Positions 9,718 through 63,279 of a stretch of 64,000 bases of DNA are shown here, in pieces. This DNA is from Synechococcus sp. C9 (GTDB taxonomy: Bacteria > Cyanobacteriota > Cyanobacteriia > Gloeomargaritales > Gloeomargaritaceae), in contig NZ_JALAAD010000001.1 in NCBI RefSeq assembly GCF_022984075.1, forward strand, positions 1,654,455 to 1,718,454. The letters are read 5' to 3'. Both the position numbers and the translations under genes were made by a program. The notes beneath the pieces are model-generated. The model was not told the origin of the DNA. It saw only the letters and a list, made by a program, of their open reading frames with translations, and did no database searches. Positions within the stretch are counted from its first letter, which is position 1; each line of letters opens with the position of its first letter.

Positions 9718-10804
9718 CAGTAGTGTTGAATGTTAACGAAAGGGTGGAAAAGGGAGACTAAAAATGGTATTTTAGATTGGTAGAAACCACGAGTAACAGT
9801 ATTTTTATGAGACGACAAATTCAGGGACTTATCAAGCCCTTGCTGAACCTTCTTCCCAAAAACGACTATCCAGTCTTGGATACTCGCTTGTTTGTACTCA
9901 TATGGATGCACTTCATTTTAGATGCAAGAGTCGCCACCATGCGGGGCTTATTCTTCCTCTTGAATCATCTCAATTTTAAAGTTGACATATCAACGTTTTC
10001 TAAGGCGTGTAAACATCGTAGCACCGAGCCGTTTCAAGTGATCCTAAGAGAACTGCAAAAACGGCTTAAACATCATCAAGGTGAATTTAAGCACTTATTC
10101 CCATTAGATTCTACCATTATCACCCTGACCAGCAAATTATTCTGGCACTACAAGCAGGTAAAATTGACGCTTGGCCTGGATATAAATGAGGGCAATATCG
10201 GTGACGAATCAATTATATTTGGAAAGACTAATGACCATAAAATTGGGCATCTTGTGATTGGGACGATACCTGAGAATGCCGTTGGTATCATGGATAGGGG
10301 TTTTGCTTCCTGGAAATTAATGGACGAAATGTGTAAACGAAATACATTGTTTATTGTGCGGATTAGAAATAATATGAAGTTGCAACCTGACAATCCGGAT
10401 ATTCGGGTAATTCAATTTTTTAATGAAGAGGAAAACACAGAATATAGGCTAGCGACTAACGTGACTTCGATGACGGATGAAGAGATTTGTTCAGCCTATC
10501 GTTTGCGCTGGCGAATTGAGTTGCTTTGGAAGGCACTAAAGATGCACTTGAAATTGGATAGAATCATTACCAAGAATGAGAATGGTGTGCGGCTACAGAT
10601 TTATGCCGTATTGATTGGTTATCTAATTTTAAGATTGCTGGAGATAGGTCACAATAAGACCTATGAATTGATTGACAAGTTGCGATATTTACAAATAGAA
10701 ATAGGCCGACACTGTAGCTTCATGGAACTCGTAGGGGTAGAGCCGCTCGTAGGATAACCCTGACCCCTTATGTTAAGTTTTATTACGGACATTCAACACT
10801 ACTG
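9718..10804 (+). mobile_element. IS4-family insertion sequence, copy 1 (1087 bp)
   Basis: Complete element with 16-bp perfect terminal inverted repeats CAGTAGTGTTGAATGT and a 9-bp target duplication CACGCTAGG (9709-9717 and 10805-10813). Encodes one transposase. The transposase translation is identical to those of copies 2 (24777-25863) and 3 (32317-33403), and all three elements are the same length, so transposition was recent. This copy lies 49 nt after the gyrB stop and breaks no gene. Confidence 0.96.
9777..10757 (+). CDS. IS4-family transposase (copy 1)
   Basis: DDE transposase. 326 aa from TTG at 9777, or 316 aa from ATG at 9807 (MRRQIQGLIKPLL), which may be the true start. Catalytic residues: first Asp in FPLDSTIITLTS, second Asp in GIMDRGFASWKL, Glu in the IS4 signature YRLRWRIELLWKALK, which fits Y-x2-R-x3-E-x6-K exactly. 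Insertion with 9-bp target duplication also fits IS4. A/T-rich relative to neighbouring housekeeping genes. Confidence 0.95.
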   Translation: MVETTSNSIFMRRQIQGLIKPLLNLLPKNDYPVLDTRLFVLIWMHFILDARVATMRGLFFLLNHLNFKVDISTFSKACKHRSTEPFQVILRELQKRLKHHQGEFKHLFPLDSTIITLTSKLFWHYKQVKLTLGLDINEGNIGDESIIFGKTNDHKIGHLVIGTIPENAVGIMDRGFASWKLMDEMCKRNTLFIVRIRNNMKLQPDNPDIRVIQFFNEEENTEYRLATNVTSMTDEEICSAYRLRWRIELLWKALKMHLKLDRIITKNENGVRLQIYAVLIGYLILRLLEIGHNKTYELIDKLRYLQIEIGRHCSFMELVGVEPLVG

Positions 10805-33403: not shown

Positions 33404-33869
33404 GGTTAGGACATTCCAAGTCTGCTTGATAGTTGTAGATGTAAGCAGGATTTTCACAGGAGAGGAAAGTGTATTGACCACAGGAGTTGCATCCAAGACG
33501 GACACCATTAACACTTCCGTGCGCGAAGTAAGCCTTAGTAAGTCTTCCTTGATTGCATTGTGGGCAGGTAAACTCACCTTGGTAGTCTTGAAGCCAATCC
33601 ACTTCAAGAATCCCATTGAGTGTTTGATGCCTTGAAATCGGCAGATGCTTACGCTGGCTTGTACATGAGAGGTAAGTGTACTGACCGCAGGAGTTACATT
33701 CAAGCCGAACACCATTAATACTTCCGTGTGCGAAGTAAGCCTTAGTAAGTCTTCCTTGATTGCATTGTGGGCAGGTAAACTCACCTTGGTAGTCTTGCAG
33801 CCAATTCACTTCAAGAATCCCGTTGAGCGTTTGATGCCTTGAAATCGGCAGGTGTTTACGCTGACTCAT
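33404..33869 (-). pseudogene. Tyrosine recombinase C, 5' part with two tandem zinc ribbons
   Basis: 155 codons from ATG at 33869 to the IS insertion point. Two near-identical 69-residue units in tandem (first residues 2-70, second 71-139), each with FTCPQCNQGRLTKAYFAHGS and a second pair NSCGQ preceded by C, i.e. C-x2-C ... C-x2-C, likely binding one zinc. After the second unit, YNYQADLECPNP leads into the next finger beyond the IS. The start overlaps the recombinase B stop region by 14 nt. Such an N-terminal zinc-ribbon array is not part of standard Tn554 recombinases as I know them. Confidence 0.85.
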
Positions 33870-38509: not shown

Positions 38510-40050
38510 TGGTGGGGCGGCGGTTACTGCTGGGGGCACCCCCAGGGGTGATTGGGGAGGATGCCCTGGCGTTGTTACGGCGGACGGGGGCGATGGGGCT
38601 TGTCCTCTTTCGCAGTAATTTGACCCAACCGGCGCAACTTCGCCAACACCTGACCTGGTTGCGGGAGTGCCTGGGGCGACCAGTGGTGATTGCCATTGAC
38701 CACGAAGGGGGGCAAGTCATGCGCCATCTGGAAGGCACTGCCCCTTGGCCGGGGAATTATGCCCTGGGGCGGGTGGCGGAGCAGGATGTCCCCCAAGCGG
38801 AACGGTGGGCGGAGCAGGTGGGCTGGGAGTTGGGGCAAGAACTGCGGGCCCTGGGGATTGGCTGGAATTTGGCACCGGTTTTGGATGTGCTGGGCGAACA
38901 ACCGAATCCGGGCTTGGGCGGGCGGGCGTTTGGGAGCGACCCGGAGGTGGTGACCCGCTTGGGGCTGGCGATGGTTCGGGGACTGCAACAGGCGGGAATT
39001 GTCCCCTGCGGCAAACATTTTCCGGGGTTGGGCTGGGCCCAGGTGGACCCCCATCACACCCTGCCCCGTTTGGATTTAAGCCCATCGCAACTGGCGGCCC
39101 ATTGGCAACCCTTTCGGGCGGCGATTGAGGCCGGATTGCCCACCGTGATGACCACCCATGTACTGGTGCCAGCCTTAGATACTGAAAATGTCATGACGTT
39201 TTCCCAACACACCATCCAAACCCATCTGCGGGGTGAGTTGCAGTTTACCGGGGTGTGTGTGAGCGATGATTTACAAATGGGAGCCATGACGGACTGGGGA
39301 ACGATGGCGGACATGACCCTGAAAACCCTACAAGCCGGGCACGATGTGGCGCTGGTGGGGGCGCAGGCGGAGGATTGGCAGGCGGTGCTGGGGCGGTTAT
39401 CCGAGGCGGTTGACCAGGGGGCACTGCCTGAATTGGAAGCATCCCTGCAGCGGATTGCCCACCTAATGAGCCAAGCGGACATTGCCCAGGTATTGCCCCC
39501 GACCCAGGATTGGCAACCGGCGACCCTGCTGGCGGCAGAAATTGCTCAGGCGGCGGTGCGGGTGGTGCGAGACCCCCAGGGTTGGTTGCCGGTGAAATGG
39601 CCGGTGCGGTTGTATCTCCCGGATGTGACCCCAGTGGCGGATTGGGTGCTGTTTGAACCCTGTTGGTTTGCTCCGGCCCAGATGGCTGACCTGCTGGGCG
39701 TACCAACGGCTGAAATTGTCATGACATTCTTAGACGCAACGAGGGTTTGCACCAGTACGAGGGAGGCCGGAGATACTAAAGCTGGCGATGATTGTGCCGC
39801 TGATGTTTTTACAACTAATGTACTGATTTTATACGATGCTCTGCGGTATCCTGGACAGCGGCGGGTGTTGGAGGAATTGGCGCACCAGGGGCAACCGTTG
39901 GTGGTGGTATTGGTACGCAATCCTGGGGATGTCCATTTGGTACCGGCAGGGGTGACGGTGGTGGATGCGGCGGGATTTCGTTCTCCCCAGGTACAGCAGG
40001 TGGGGCGGGTGTTGCGAGGTGAGCCGTGGCATTTCTGCGCTGGTGGGTGA
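38509..40050 (+). CDS. nagZ: Beta-N-acetylhexosaminidase, GH3 family (NagZ-like)
   Basis: Removes GlcNAc from muropeptides or glycosides. ATG at 38509 overlaps the upstream TGA, giving 513 aa. GH3 motifs: AIDHEGGQVMRH, GWNLAPVLDVL, GKHFPGLGWAQVDPHHTLP (the NagZ K-H-F-P-G and Asp-x-His dyad, with W-A-Q in place of the more usual D-T-x), VSDDLQMGAM with the nucleophile Asp. Longer than the about 340-aa Gram-negative NagZ because of a C-terminal domain of about 170 residues, as in many cyanobacterial and Gram-positive members. Its end overlaps pstA by 25 nt. Confidence 0.92.
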   Translation: MVGRRLLLGAPPGVIGEDALALLRRTGAMGLVLFRSNLTQPAQLRQHLTWLRECLGRPVVIAIDHEGGQVMRHLEGTAPWPGNYALGRVAEQDVPQAERWAEQVGWELGQELRALGIGWNLAPVLDVLGEQPNPGLGGRAFGSDPEVVTRLGLAMVRGLQQAGIVPCGKHFPGLGWAQVDPHHTLPRLDLSPSQLAAHWQPFRAAIEAGLPTVMTTHVLVPALDTENVMTFSQHTIQTHLRGELQFTGVCVSDDLQMGAMTDWGTMADMTLKTLQAGHDVALVGAQAEDWQAVLGRLSEAVDQGALPELEASLQRIAHLMSQADIAQVLPPTQDWQPATLLAAEIAQAAVRVVRDPQGWLPVKWPVRLYLPDVTPVADWVLFEPCWFAPAQMADLLGVPTAEIVMTFLDATRVCTSTREAGDTKAGDDCAADVFTTNVLILYDALRYPGQRRVLEELAHQGQPLVVVLVRNPGDVHLVPAGVTVVDAAGFRSPQVQQVGRVLRGEPWHFCAGG

Positions 40051-40901
40051 ATTGCCTGCTGTCGTGGCTGGTGGGCATGGCGGTGGCGGCGGCGGTCGGG
40101 GTGCTGGGCTGGGTGGTGGGCTATGTGGTGTATCGGGGCGGGACGCAACTCCTGCGGGGGGGGTGGGAAATTTTCACGGAGGTGCCCCCTGCGCCCTTGA
40201 GTGGGAGTGGGGGGTTGGGGCCGGCTTTGGTGGGCAGTGGGATTCTCATTACTTTAGCAGTACTGATGGCTCTGCCCGTGTCGGTGTTGGCGGCTTTATA
40301 CTTGCAGGAATTTTGCCCCTGGCCGGGACTGGTGCGGCTGTTGACCCTGGGGTTGGATGTTTTGGCGGGGATTCCATCCATCATGGCGGGGGTGTTTATT
40401 TTCGGCGTGGTGGTGGTGCCTACCCAGCGGTTTTCCGTCGTGGCGGGGGGGTTGGCTTTGGCGATCCTGATGCTCCCGATTTTCACCACGGCAACTCGGT
40501 TGGCCTTGGCGGGCATACCGGCGGAAATACGGGACGGGGCGTGGGCCTTGGGGGCCACCCGCTGGCAGATGGTGACGGGAATTTTATTGCCCCAGGCGTG
40601 GCCGGGAATGGTGAGTGGCTTAACCTTGGGGGTTGCCCGGGCGGTGGGGGAAACGGCTCCCCTCTTGTTTACCGCCCTATTTTCCTCCCATTATTTGCCC
40701 CTGAGGGAATTGGGTGTTCGTGCCCTCGGCACCCAACCCCTGGCTTCATTGCCGGTGTTAATTTACACCTTTGCCATGTCCCCTTTTGCCAATCAACAGG
40801 ATTTAGCTTGGGCAGGGGCGTTGGTGTTAATTATTTTTATTTTGGGGTTAAATGTACTGGCATATTGGTATCAATTGGTTCAACGATTTTCTCAACAATG
40901 A
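40026..40901 (+). CDS. pstA: Phosphate ABC transporter permease PstA
   Basis: One of two membrane subunits of the Pst phosphate importer. 291 aa with six predicted helices; GTG start inside nagZ. EAA-type loop: EIRDGAWALGATRWQMVTGI, with LPQAWPGMVSGLTLGVARAV and GETAPLLFTA as in PstA. pstS, pstC and pstB, normally adjacent, are absent here, so this gene must work with subunits encoded elsewhere, or be a stray copy. Confidence 0.92.
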   Translation: MAFLRWWVNCLLSWLVGMAVAAAVGVLGWVVGYVVYRGGTQLLRGGWEIFTEVPPAPLSGSGGLGPALVGSGILITLAVLMALPVSVLAALYLQEFCPWPGLVRLLTLGLDVLAGIPSIMAGVFIFGVVVVPTQRFSVVAGGLALAILMLPIFTTATRLALAGIPAEIRDGAWALGATRWQMVTGILLPQAWPGMVSGLTLGVARAVGETAPLLFTALFSSHYLPLRELGVRALGTQPLASLPVLIYTFAMSPFANQQDLAWAGALVLIIFILGLNVLAYWYQLVQRFSQQ

Positions 40902-41000
40902 AACAGATAAATAAAATTATTTTTCATCAGAGGAAATTTGAATGGATTGAATATCAAGAATAATTTGGTTATCTATCCCAACCCTGTAGCCTAAATTCTA

Positions 41001-41522
41001 TAGCAATGCTACTTAATTAGTGAGCAGAAATTCCCCAGAACCAAGGACGGGGGCGGTGCCCCTGCGACCCCTATTGCATTCTTATTTGGTTTATTTGGTA
41101 TTGCCATAACAATGCTACTTAATTAGTGAGCAGAAATTCCCCAGAACCCAAAACGGGGGCGGTGCCCCTGCGACCCCTATTGTATTCTTATTTGGTTTAT
41201 TTGGTATTGCCATAACAATGCTACTTGATTAGTGAATAGAAGTTCTCCAGAACCCAAGACGGGGGCGGTGCCCCTGCGACCCCTATTGTATTCTTATTTG
41301 GTTTATTTGGTATTGCCATAACAATGCTACTTGATTAGTGAATAGAAGTTCTCCAGAACCCAAGACGGGGGCGGTGCCCCTGCGACCCCTATTGTATTCT
41401 TATTTGGTTTATTTGGTATTGCCATAACAATGCTACTTGATTAGTGAATAGAAGTTCTCCAGAACCCAAGACGGGGGCGGTGCCCCTGCGACCCCTATTG
41501 CATTCTTATTTGGTATTGCTAT
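41001..41522. repeat. Five tandem copies of a family-A-derived repeat (106-bp period)
   Basis: Direct tandem array; the motif AATGCTACTT recurs at 41005, 41111, 41217, 41323 and 41429, i.e. every 106 bp. Each unit has the core CGGGGGCGGTGCCCCTGCGA and an inner spacer TTCTTATTTGGTTTATTTGG. Copies 3, 4 and 5 are almost identical. The outer left end TAGCAATGCTA and right end TATTGCTA correspond to family-A termini. The rest of 40902-41824 contains only a degenerate core near 41565 and the pyk leader. Confidence 0.92.
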
Positions 41523-41824
41523 ATTATGGCTATACTGAATTTAGAATTAAGTGTTACAAGGGCAGTGCTATCCCGTATTGGTTCTACAAAATTACGGTTT
41601 CTTAAATGCCAAACGAACGGGCGGGATTGCCATATCTATTCTGAAATTAACTAGAAATGCCTGCGTAACCTATCCAGCTAAGGTTAACTATTGATTAATC
41701 AAAACTTAACCTGATAATCGCCAGCAATCTTTAGCTTTTCTTTCCCCCTTTGACCCCAACGCAACGCAAAACCTGTGTTAATTTAACGGTGGATGAACTG
41801 CTACTATTTACCCCCATACCGACG

Positions 41825-43249
41825 ATGAAACCCTTAATTCATCACACCAAAATTGTTGCTACCATTGGCCCGGCGAGCAATTCCCCCGAGGTGATGCGGC
41901 AGATGTTGCGGGCGGGGATGAATGTGGCACGGTTGAATTTTTCCCATGGTAAGTACGAAGACCACGCCCAATGTATTGCCAACCTCCGGGCGGCGGCGGC
42001 GGAGTTGGATTTACCCCTGATGCTGTTGCAGGATTTGCAGGGCCCCAAAATCCGCGTGGGGGATTTACCGGCGACGGGGCTGGACTTGGCGGATGGGATG
42101 GGTTTGACCCTGGTGCCCCTCGGTCAGGAGGACGGCCAGCCGGACACGGTGGGCATTGACTATCCCTATGTGGCGGAGGAGGCTACCCCCGGTACGCCGG
42201 TGCTGTTGGATGATGGACTGCTGGAATTGCGGGTGGAGCGGGTGCAGGGAAATAAAGTACAATGTACTGTTGTTAAAGGAGGCACTCTAAAAAGTCATAA
42301 GGGGGTGAATTTCCCCACTTTGAACCTGCGGCTCCCGGCGATGACGGAGAAGGACAAACGGGACTTGGAATTTGGTTTGGCTCAGGGGGTGGATTTAATT
42401 TCCCTGAGTTTTGTGCGCCGACCGGAGGATGTGCGGGAATTAAAACAGATGCTCCAGGAACGGGGGGCGAACCTGCCCGTATTAGCCAAAATTGAGAAAC
42501 CCCAGGCGGTAGAAAATTTGGAAGCCATTATCGCCGAATGTGACGCAGTGATGGTGGCTCGGGGGGATTTGGGGGTAGAAATGAGTCCCGAAAAAGTGCC
42601 CCTGATCCAAAAACGGATCATTCACCTGTGCAACCAACGGGGCATTCCCGTGATTACCGCCACCCAGATGTTGGAGAGCATGATCCACAACCCCCGTCCC
42701 ACCCGAGCGGAAGCCAGCGATGTGGCCAATGCGATTATTGACGGCACGGATGCGGTGATGCTCTCTGGGGAATCTGCCGTGGGACGATACCCAGTGGCCG
42801 CCGTGGAAATGCTGGCACGGATCGCAAAGGAGGTGGAACCGGCGGTGAAATTTACCAACTACCCGGCCAACCACAGTGATGATGTGGATGCGGTGGTGGA
42901 GGCACTTCACGCCATTGATGATACATTAGATTTACAATGTATTGTTGTTTTTACCAATTCGGGCTACACGGCCAGATTGGTGGCGGCGGAACGTCCCCAT
43001 ACGCCGATTGTGGCTTATACTCCTGATCCACACATTTACCATCGTTTAAGTTTGTATTGGGGGGTGCGCCCAGTGATTACCCGCTGGTTTACGGACAATG
43101 TGATGGATGTGCTGAAAGAAATGGAAAAAGATTTAATTCAGCGGCAGTATGTGACCCCAGGGGATAAGGTTTTGGTGATTACGGGGATTCCCTTCGGACA
43201 GGCAAAAACCACTAATTTCCTCAAAATTCACACCATTGGTGAGGATTAA
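41825..43249 (+). CDS. pyk: Pyruvate kinase
   Basis: Last step of glycolysis, PEP + ADP to pyruvate + ATP. ATG at 41825 (MKPLIHHTKIVATIGPASNS) gives 474 aa, normal for the short bacterial form; an in-frame TTG at 41750 would add 25 non-conserved residues. Motifs: RLNFSHGKYEDH, LAKIEKPQAVENL (signature Lys), MVARGDLGVEM, SGESAVGRYPVAAV. It lacks the extra C-terminal PEP-utiliser domain of the long cyanobacterial isoform. Confidence 0.97.
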   Translation: MKPLIHHTKIVATIGPASNSPEVMRQMLRAGMNVARLNFSHGKYEDHAQCIANLRAAAAELDLPLMLLQDLQGPKIRVGDLPATGLDLADGMGLTLVPLGQEDGQPDTVGIDYPYVAEEATPGTPVLLDDGLLELRVERVQGNKVQCTVVKGGTLKSHKGVNFPTLNLRLPAMTEKDKRDLEFGLAQGVDLISLSFVRRPEDVRELKQMLQERGANLPVLAKIEKPQAVENLEAIIAECDAVMVARGDLGVEMSPEKVPLIQKRIIHLCNQRGIPVITATQMLESMIHNPRPTRAEASDVANAIIDGTDAVMLSGESAVGRYPVAAVEMLARIAKEVEPAVKFTNYPANHSDDVDAVVEALHAIDDTLDLQCIVVFTNSGYTARLVAAERPHTPIVAYTPDPHIYHRLSLYWGVRPVITRWFTDNVMDVLKEMEKDLIQRQYVTPGDKVLVITGIPFGQAKTTNFLKIHTIGED

Positions 43250-43282
43250 AGGATACTGGTAAAATTATTAAAGACACCTCTA

Positions 43283-43379
43283 TAGCAATCCTACTTGATT
43301 AGTGAACAGAGATTCCCCAGAACCAAGGACGGGGGCGGTGCCCCTGCGACCCCTATTCTATTCTCATTTAGGACTGCTA
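43283..43379. repeat. Family-A MITE-like element
   Basis: 97 bp, TAGCAATCCTACTTGATT to TTTAGGACTGCTA, core GACGGGGGCGGTGCCCCTGC; TA on the left flank. Thirty-three bases after the pyk stop. Confidence 0.85.
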
Positions 43380-43394
43380 TGTTTATTGCCACCA

Positions 43395-61466: not shown

Positions 61467-63279
61467 GTTTCAGTCCCGTTGACCGGGATTAATTGATTGA
61501 GACCCCAACTAACGGGCTTGGACAGGGAAATAGGTGGAGATGCGTGTTTCAGTCCCCTTGACCGGGATTAATTGATTGAGACCTAATTTCCTGTAAATTT
61601 AAGTTCATCGCTGGCTTAGTTTCAGTCCCGTTGACCGGGATTAATTGATTGAGACCCAGTATAAACATTGTTGGTGGCATAAGAGGCGGGGTTTCAGTCC
61701 CGTTGACCGGGATTAATTGATTGAGACCCCAATAGCCCGCACACCAGGGCATTAGCGGTTGATTGTGTTTCAGTCCCGTTGACCGGGATTAATTGATTGA
61801 GACCGTTCCCAAGTCGTGAGAGAGAGAGCCGATGGCGTGTTTCAGTCCCGTTGACCGGGATTAATTGATTGAGACCCGGGTTTTATGCGTTTGAAATTGA
61901 CGTGACTTTCAAGTTTCAGTCCCGTTGACCGGGATTAATTGATTGAGACTCGTCAGAGCATCGTTCCCTATTGCCGCCAATTGGACGTTTCAGTCCCGTT
62001 GACCGGGATTAATTGATTGAGACCCGATTGACGTGTAACCGGGAATCTTCTATCAAAAACGTGTTTCAGTCCCGTTGACCGGGATTAATTGATTGAGACT
62101 CCCCTGTTTCACCAAAATCGTTATAGGTTGGACAAGTTTCAGTCCCGTTGACCGGGATTAATTGATTGAGACTCGTTTGGATTTCCCGTTTCCAGCCGCC
62201 CCGAATAAGTTTCAGTCCCGTTGACCGGGATTAATTGATTGAGACTTTGCCTACCATGTTGCCCTAATTGAGTGGTCTGGTGTTTCAGTCCCGTTGACCG
62301 GGATTAATTGATTGAGACATTTGGAACCTTACAGGAGGTGGCGAGCATGAGTCCCCGTTTCAGTCCCGTTGACCGGGATTAATTGATTGAGACTCACAAA
62401 ATTGCCACCCGCCATAGAGATAAGGCTCGTTTCAGTCCCGTTGACCGGGATTAATTGATTGAGACCCGTTGCGCCTCCCGCTCCCCCGCCGTCGTGTTTT
62501 CGTTTCAGTCCCGTTGACCGGGATTAATTGATTGAGACACATCAGGCGTGACATCAGGCGTGACATCCGTGACAAGTTTCAGTCCCGTTGACCGGGATTA
62601 ATTGATTGAGACTTTGCCTACCATGTTGCCCTAATTGAGTGGTCTGGTGTTTCAGTCCCGTTGACCGGGATTAATTGATTGAGACATCCCCGATGGCGTA
62701 TTGACTGGCGGTGGGGGTGATGTTTCAGTCCCGTTGACCGGGATTAATTGATTGAGACGACGGATGCGGATAATGACCTGTTATGCGAGAGCTTTGTTTC
62801 AGTCCCGTTGACCGGGATTAATTGATTGAGACCTGTAGCCCCCGCAGAATCTGCCTTAGCCCGTTCACCCGTTTCAGTCCCGTTGACCGGGATTAATTGA
62901 TTGAGACCCAATAAACTTTGGACTTTGGTTAGCCCGGTAGGTGCGTTTCAGTCCCGTTGACCGGGATTAATTGATTGAGACTCCCGCAACCTACCACCTG
63001 CGCTATGGCGGGGGGTCACGTTTCAGTCCCGTTGACCGGGATTAATTGATTGAGACGCCAAAACCTTCCGCTTTGACCCTAATCGCCTCTCCAGTTTCAG
63101 TCCCGTTGACCGGGATTAATTGATTGAGACTTCCCGTGCCAGTTCGAGGTGGCTGGTCGGGCAACGGTAGGTTTCAGTCCCGTTGACCGGGATTAATTGA
63201 TTGAGACTGGATGTTGGGTCCCCCGGCGGTGGGGTCTAGGTTGTTTCAGTCCCGTTGACCGGGATTAATTGATTGAGAC
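61467..63279 (-). CRISPR. CRISPR array, 25 repeats of 37 nt and 24 spacers, type I-D-like
   Basis: On the plus strand each repeat begins GTTTCAGTCCCGTTGACC and ends AATTGATTGAGAC; 37 nt. Spacers are 35-42 nt. All copies look identical except repeat 2 (61546), which has one C for G change. The inverse reading ends CGGGACTGAAAC, and contains TAATCCCGG, like the type I-D repeat of Synechocystis 6803. With the degenerate repeats at the left and cas2 at the right, the leader lies at the right and the array is transcribed leftwards. Spacer 11 (62246-62281) is identical to spacer 16 (62613-62648). Confidence 0.97.

Follow-up and report, generated by a model that had tools for sequence, protein, structure and literature searches.

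Within the 64,000-nucleotide stretch of the Synechococcus sp. C9 genome analysed here (the window), a pstA-like gene and the pyruvate kinase gene pyk are separated by five head-to-tail units of a short repeat at 41001-41521, the first four 106 bp long and the fifth 97 bp; the evidence below identifies the units as MITEs. The name pstA was assigned to the left-hand gene from its protein family and context, and its DNA was matched in five congeners. The features of the locus are as follows.

40026..40901, plus strand: pstA-like gene (ABC transporter inner-membrane protein), an open reading frame left of the array; BPD_transp_1, PF00528, 1.4e-7
40999..41000: left TA target duplication, by direct reading
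41001..41106, plus strand: unit 1, 106 bp, type A, retaining the outer left end TAGCAATGC
41081..41098, plus strand: 9-bp near-duplication cttatttgg-tttatttgg, the unit 1 instance of a feature present in units 1-4
41103..41110: first of four identical junctions GC-CATA-AC, at which a right end abuts a left end with a 4-bp spacer
41107..41212, plus strand: unit 2, 106 bp, a hybrid of unit 1 and units 3-4
41213..41318, plus strand: unit 3, 106 bp, middle type
41319..41424, plus strand: unit 4, 106 bp, identical to unit 3
41425..41521, plus strand: unit 5, 97 bp, the standard length of a single MITE, retaining the outer right end TATTGCTA
41522..41523: right TA target duplication, by direct reading
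41825..43249, plus strand: pyk (pyruvate kinase), right of the array; PK, PF00224, 7.6e-118
43281..43380, plus strand: lone member of this MITE family, 3' of pyk

TRF describes the array as a repeat at 41000-41514 with a period of 106, 4.9 copies, 97% match, no indels and a score of 918. The identity of the array with itself at a lag of 106 is 0.964 over 415 positions, against at most 0.354 when 40 base-shuffled versions were compared at ten lags between 60 and 150. Together with the gene calls, these results bear out the original prediction of five tandem copies between pstA and pyk. The period of exactly 106 bp that it also gave holds for four units and fails for the last, which is 97 bp long because it does not contain the 9-bp near-duplication. 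It was right, too, that copies 3 to 5 are almost identical, as units 3 and 4 are the same and unit 5 departs from them by one base before its right end; unit 1 differs from unit 3 at nine bases and unit 2 at six. The three remaining junctions lie at +106, +212 and +318 from the first.

The core of the repeat was matched 267 times in the C9 genome at up to three mismatches, and a reversed-pattern control gave 0 matches. A consensus of 30 clean copies, chosen for ends within two mismatches, is 101 bp long, counting a flanking TA on each side, and has inverted TATAGCAATCCTA (13 bp) at both of its ends. To read the target site, the flanks of 28 single copies were joined as if the element were not there, and 27 of these were searched in the congener G002, a different species of the same genus. 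A match across the joined flanks was obtained for 6 of the 27. At five of these empty sites (L017, L025, L028, L082 and L086) there is a single TA where the C9 genome has TA-element-TA, and the sixth (L085) is too diverged to read; the counterpart of L082 is perhaps a paralogue, because L082 sits in an IS630 copy. Four copies (L009, L012, L016 and L034) are filled in both genomes, and 17 have no collinear match in G002, for causes that the count does not separate. The empty sites therefore define the element as TAGC...GCTA, 97 bp in its standard form, with duplication of a TA. Among the copies with both ends recognised, a set that includes the array units and copies of relatives and excludes 62 of 165 cores, the base before the left TATA is C or A in 93 of 103 and the base after the right TATA is T or G in 87 of 102, so that the preference outside TATA is palindromic. 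No open reading frame of 50 or more amino acids lies wholly inside a unit; one of 53 amino acids begins in unit 5 and exits the array.

The units are thus short and without a transposase gene, have terminal inverted repeats and a TA duplication, occur in many dispersed copies, and match an autonomous type of element at their ends. Each is a MITE of the IS630/Tc1-mariner type, and what had been called a MITE-like repeat is confirmed as such by its ends, its TA duplication and the matching IS630 element described below. Searches of plasmid and phage collections for related DNA gave no match to the array repeat, and neither did a search for the tandem-core pattern in a genome contig collection that may omit records near the window genome. 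Several members of the family (L009, L016, L018, L025, L028, L040 and L070) carry, by eye, extra palindrome-like inserts at fixed places, namely GCTTGCGTGCCGTAGGCATAC and its variants and ACACCGCAGGTGCTTCTTT, which points to a mosaic build. Nostoc has small dispersed repeats nested within other repeats, with which these insert-bearing members may be compared.

A search of three genomes for PF13358 located IS630-family elements. One of these, of 1,132 bp (C9 genome, C1:2734232-2735363), has the same 13-bp ends as the MITE and the domains of IS630/Tc1-mariner elements, DDE_3 (PF13358, 4e-13) and HTH_23 (3.3e-10). Its left 30 bp agree with the right end of the MITE at 27 of 30 positions, against 19 to 21 in the other three end comparisons, and the same comparison for the left end of an IS630-family element in G004 gives 25. 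The GC-rich core of the MITE is absent from the ends of the C9 element, the ends alone having been compared. The G004 element, which has the same ends, is 1,151 bp long, and the C9 element is 81% identical to it over 1,109 bp; an element with these ends in G002 is interrupted by a MITE copy. We infer that the IS630-family element of the C9 genome is the likely source of the transposase that moved the MITE. It may itself be inactive, given that its transposase lies in two frames, with the HTH and DDE parts meeting at a run of A (by eye). A related transposase was found at 14 loci in named genomes, of which 10 were examined for ends. The exact 13-mer TATAGCAATCCTA stands on both sides of the transposase match in 7 of the 10 (G002, Phormidium tenue, two Nostoc, Microcoleus, Iningainema and Scytonema); the Xenococcaceae and Okeania loci have one-base variants, and at the Tolypothrix locus a single end was seen. 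These cyanobacterial IS630-family elements have their ends in common with the MITE and differ from it in being full-length elements.

MITE copies were also seen inside IS630-family sequences related to the partner element, at L210 (G002 C1:958600-961600) and at L082/L199 (the C1:1750429 region of the C9 genome); insertion of this kind would disable those copies as a source of transposase. Another insertion sequence in the window (9718-10804), which we take to be IS4-like, was considered as partner of the MITE and dropped, as its ends, CAGTAGTGTTGAATG, differ. It is flanked by an apparent 9-bp duplication, CACGCTAGG, is repeated in G002, and has a copy at C1:772744-773830 of the C9 genome (L164) that interrupts a usp-like gene beside pgk.

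Further repeats were noticed as well. A second element type, GGGCACCTCTA...TAGAAGTGCCC, has the GC-rich core in common with the MITE and different ends, and seemingly makes a 4-bp target duplication (TTAT; TGTA, with TGTG at the site in the C9 genome). Two of its sites are empty here and filled in G002 (window 48642 region, G002 C1:2703333-2703440; window 14970 region, G002 C1:2515107-2515216). A single core is seemingly shared by two types of element that differ in their ends and in their duplications. At 2029-2228 of the window another repeat forms a row of two units (102 bp); its core is shortened, GGGGCGGTGCCCTGCGACCC, and its ends differ. A direct duplication of 207 bp with 92% match lies at 33456-33863. 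A CRISPR-like array occupies 61467-63279, where 25 repeats of 37 bp alternate with 24 spacers of 35-42 bp; with up to one mismatch allowed, none of the spacers contains the MITE stem on the plus strand.

Head-to-tail rows are a habit of this MITE family. In the first 1.82 Mb of the C9 genome, 141 cores with at most two mismatches form 19 neighbour pairs within 150 bp, in 12 clusters, and the array between pstA and pyk has the largest core count of the 12. Random placement of the cores in 2000 trials gave a mean of 1.6 pairs and a maximum of 7. All 19 pairs are on the same strand and none on opposite strands. A check of the core listing against 90 cores in inspected stretches found two missing, both with three mismatches; when the listed three-mismatch cores are included there are at least 23 pairs and at least 14 clusters, with no inverted pair among the matches listed. 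In a few pairs the distance falls below the length of an element (76 and 88 bp, and also 69 bp with three mismatches), and some clusters are therefore not clean rows. Long palindromes are unstable, and this is perhaps why inverted neighbours are missing.

Abutting junctions tell the same way: once identical junctions are merged, 18 of 18 with readable orientation are head-to-tail. A further 13 candidates gave no readable orientation, and several of the loci had been chosen for their likeness to the array. The spacers at the 18 junctions measure 4 bp (nine), 6 bp (five), 8 bp (three) and 9 bp (one), and with spacers of 6, 8 or 9 bp in 9 of 18, slippage on a 4-bp repeat alone is insufficient. 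Among the relatives, TRF found rows of about two units at four loci of G002 and a row of about four units at one locus of G004.

How the array grew can be read from the units themselves. Unit 2 matches unit 1 at five diagnostic sites on the left and units 3-4 at three on the right, and has one private base; one T is common to units 2-4 and absent from both end units. From the identity of units 3 and 4, the identical junctions and the hybrid make-up of unit 2 we conclude that unequal exchange or slippage within the array made it grow, as originally predicted. All four junctions share the 9-bp near-duplication, the same two base changes and GC-CATA-AC, and are therefore not of separate origin, and the outer flanks of the whole array (TA...TA) are those of a single insertion. 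The simplest account would begin with a founding pair and one junction, followed by internal unequal exchange or slippage. We propose that a single MITE, or a pair of abutting copies, entered the interval between pstA and the present pyk. On each side the element end and the duplicated TA together make TATA, and on this 4-bp direct repeat slippage or unequal exchange could produce a head-to-tail duplicate with a single TATA between the copies. In this account a slip of 9 bp brought the inner unit to a length of 106 bp. One junction arose, a single time, and unequal exchange within the array raised the number of units to five, as read from the shared junctions, the matching units and the hybrid unit.

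The founding pair may have come about in either of two ways, by TATA-mediated duplication or by a second insertion. Over 82 bp, units 1 and 5 have an identity of 90%; other copies of the family have a mean pairwise identity of 81%, and 9% of pairs reach 90%. Unit 1 has an identity of 0.89-0.94 with its neighbours and 0.927 with some copies elsewhere (two, in G002). Being as close to distant copies as to its neighbours, it perhaps belongs to a founding pair made by two separate insertions.

An alternative is that every unit is a separate transposition, each one targeting a terminal TA of a copy already in place; the ends of the element offer the preferred targets C-TA-T and A-TA-G, so that insertions accumulate. 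The target preference does fit both TA steps of the TATA end, spacers of 6 and 8 bp are compatible with TA-targeted insertion, the abutting dimers L106, L137 and L138 are as dissimilar as random members of the family (TRF match 82-85%), and the end units of the array are 90% alike. However, separate insertions do not account for a near-duplication and two base changes shared by all four junctions or for an array flanked overall like one insertion, and insertion at TA should yield both orientations, whereas 12 of 12 clusters are same-strand with no inverted pair. We therefore consider it improbable that the array was built in this way. That its copy number is an artefact of assembly, with reads that do not span the array, is very improbable: 0.5 kb of near-identical units is difficult for short reads, but units 1, 2, 5 and the pair 3/4 can be told apart, which limits the doubt to the number of identical units 3/4, and the same genome has rows of three to five units at several places, and G004 one of about four.

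It had also been suggested that the array could change pyk expression, and for this we found no support. A consensus scan gave two promoter-like sites in the array against 3.0 in shuffles, and one terminator-like site, on the minus strand, against 1.2. A single unit folds ordinarily (z -0.58 and +1.15), and a search of the array against Rfam returned no match. By consensus scans and single-unit folds, then, neither promoter, terminator nor conserved RNA structure rises above chance. Leaving the repeat aside, alignment with G002 upstream of pyk is limited to the final ~100 bp, which start near 41725, some 200 bp past the array. A terminator, insulator or protein-binding array selected for the expression of pyk or pst would suit the position between two genes, upstream of pyk, and the GC-rich, hairpin-like core GGGGC-GGT-GCCCC in each unit, one stem of which is the terminator-like site just mentioned. 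Set against this are the chance-level sites, the ordinary folds and the empty Rfam result, as well as the comparison with relatives (G002 has no array at pyk or pstA, and the 6-kb pstA-usp stretch of G004 has no core) and the scatter of the other clusters across the chromosome; we regard such a function as highly unlikely. Most likely, the array is selfish DNA that plays no part for pyk. The joint reading, namely an IS630/Tc1-mariner-type MITE that inserted at TA and grew into an array in place, most likely as selfish DNA and without a role for pyk, is one that we hold with good confidence.

The array stands at a place where gene order has changed. In four congeners (G001, G003, G004 and G006) pstA is followed by a usp-like gene and then by pgk, names that were assigned from sequence. 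This link is broken both in the C9 genome, where the array and then pyk follow pstA, and in G002, where a single copy and then another gene follow it; G005 gave no match to pstA. G002 has no array on the pstA side or the pyk side and one core at each; in G004 the 6-kb pstA-usp stretch yielded no core of the family. Short variants of the core stand beside usp in the C9 genome and in G002 (by eye). These two genomes also have the two highest core counts of the seven in the genus: at up to two mismatches there are 219 cores in C9, 320 in G002, 126 in G004, 20 in G005, a genome that is 83% complete, and none in G001, G003 or G006. In a sample of the class, 10 of 388 genomes have any match to the core, which is otherwise rare. 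The core was also observed in another cyanobacterial family, with 12 matches in G089, 15 in G289 and 3 in G305 (L120, L121 and L122), and in G289 a right end, ATTTTTAGAGGTG, closely resembles that of the second element type; its presence there hints at old age or transfer.

The MITE copies at the four broken ends of pstA and usp suggest that the element had a part in the rearrangement. A reciprocal junction for the joint between pstA and pyk was not found: the G002 partner genes lie at C1:179001 and C1:957423 of the C9 genome, and stretches of 5.0 and 4.5 kb there contain no core at up to four mismatches. A handful of C9 copies followed by eye were located at synteny breaks with G002. The general claim that copies sit at synteny breaks was not borne out, as 10 of 27 single copies are collinear in G002 (six empty, four filled), and we retain only the local statement that gene order is broken at pstA, where the array stands. 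A broader possibility, which we put forward tentatively and think rather doubtful, is that TATA at the MITE ends seeds satellite growth and that the rows and copies then serve as sites at which gene order breaks, as at pstA in C9 and G002, the genomes richest in copies within the genus. If each insertion seeded growth, the family would have two routes of spread, transposition and head-to-tail duplication in place.

Comparable elements have been described in other bacteria. The Repeat Unit of Pneumococcus (RUP) is 107 bp long, occurs in high copy number with a target duplication, and has ends that resemble IS630-Spn1 of the same genome (PMC3049150). It is like the present MITE in size, copy number, target duplication and IS630-like ends of its own genome, and unlike it in host and sequence; rows of whole RUPs do not appear in the passages available from these sources. 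BOX, RUP and SPRITE are described as bunched together and as inserting into one another (PMC10969869). Tandem units are described in these passages for BOX (boxB). MITEPlu5, an ERIC-related element of Photorhabdus, is 123 bp long with 552 complete copies, and shares with our MITE ends related to IS630-type transposons and a TA target duplication (PMC6267812). It is reported to have a very strong secondary structure, whereas the unit studied here folds ordinarily, and the tandem copies in Photorhabdus that appear in the same passages are those of a phage repeat rather than of MITEPlu5, whereas here it is the MITE itself that is tandem (PMC6267812). Nezha, proposed to be mobilised by ISNpu3-like elements (PMC3049150), is likewise a cyanobacterial MITE, and is likened to the present one by description rather than by sequence. 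As far as these passages go, RUP and MITEPlu5 are close parallels of this MITE. In a literature search of partial coverage, no title on this MITE family in Gloeomargarita was among the matches listed.

What was a vague MITE-like repeat is now defined by its ends, its target site, a probable source of transposase and a row whose units can be read. An IS630-type MITE is an ordinary kind of mobile element; the habit of forming head-to-tail rows is unusual. The findings also caution against interpreting the array as a regulator of pyk. The lineage is of interest as one of the near relatives of plastids. Within it, the rule of a single orientation, which holds over 12 clusters, makes this family a clean case of a bacterial MITE that may be becoming a small satellite.
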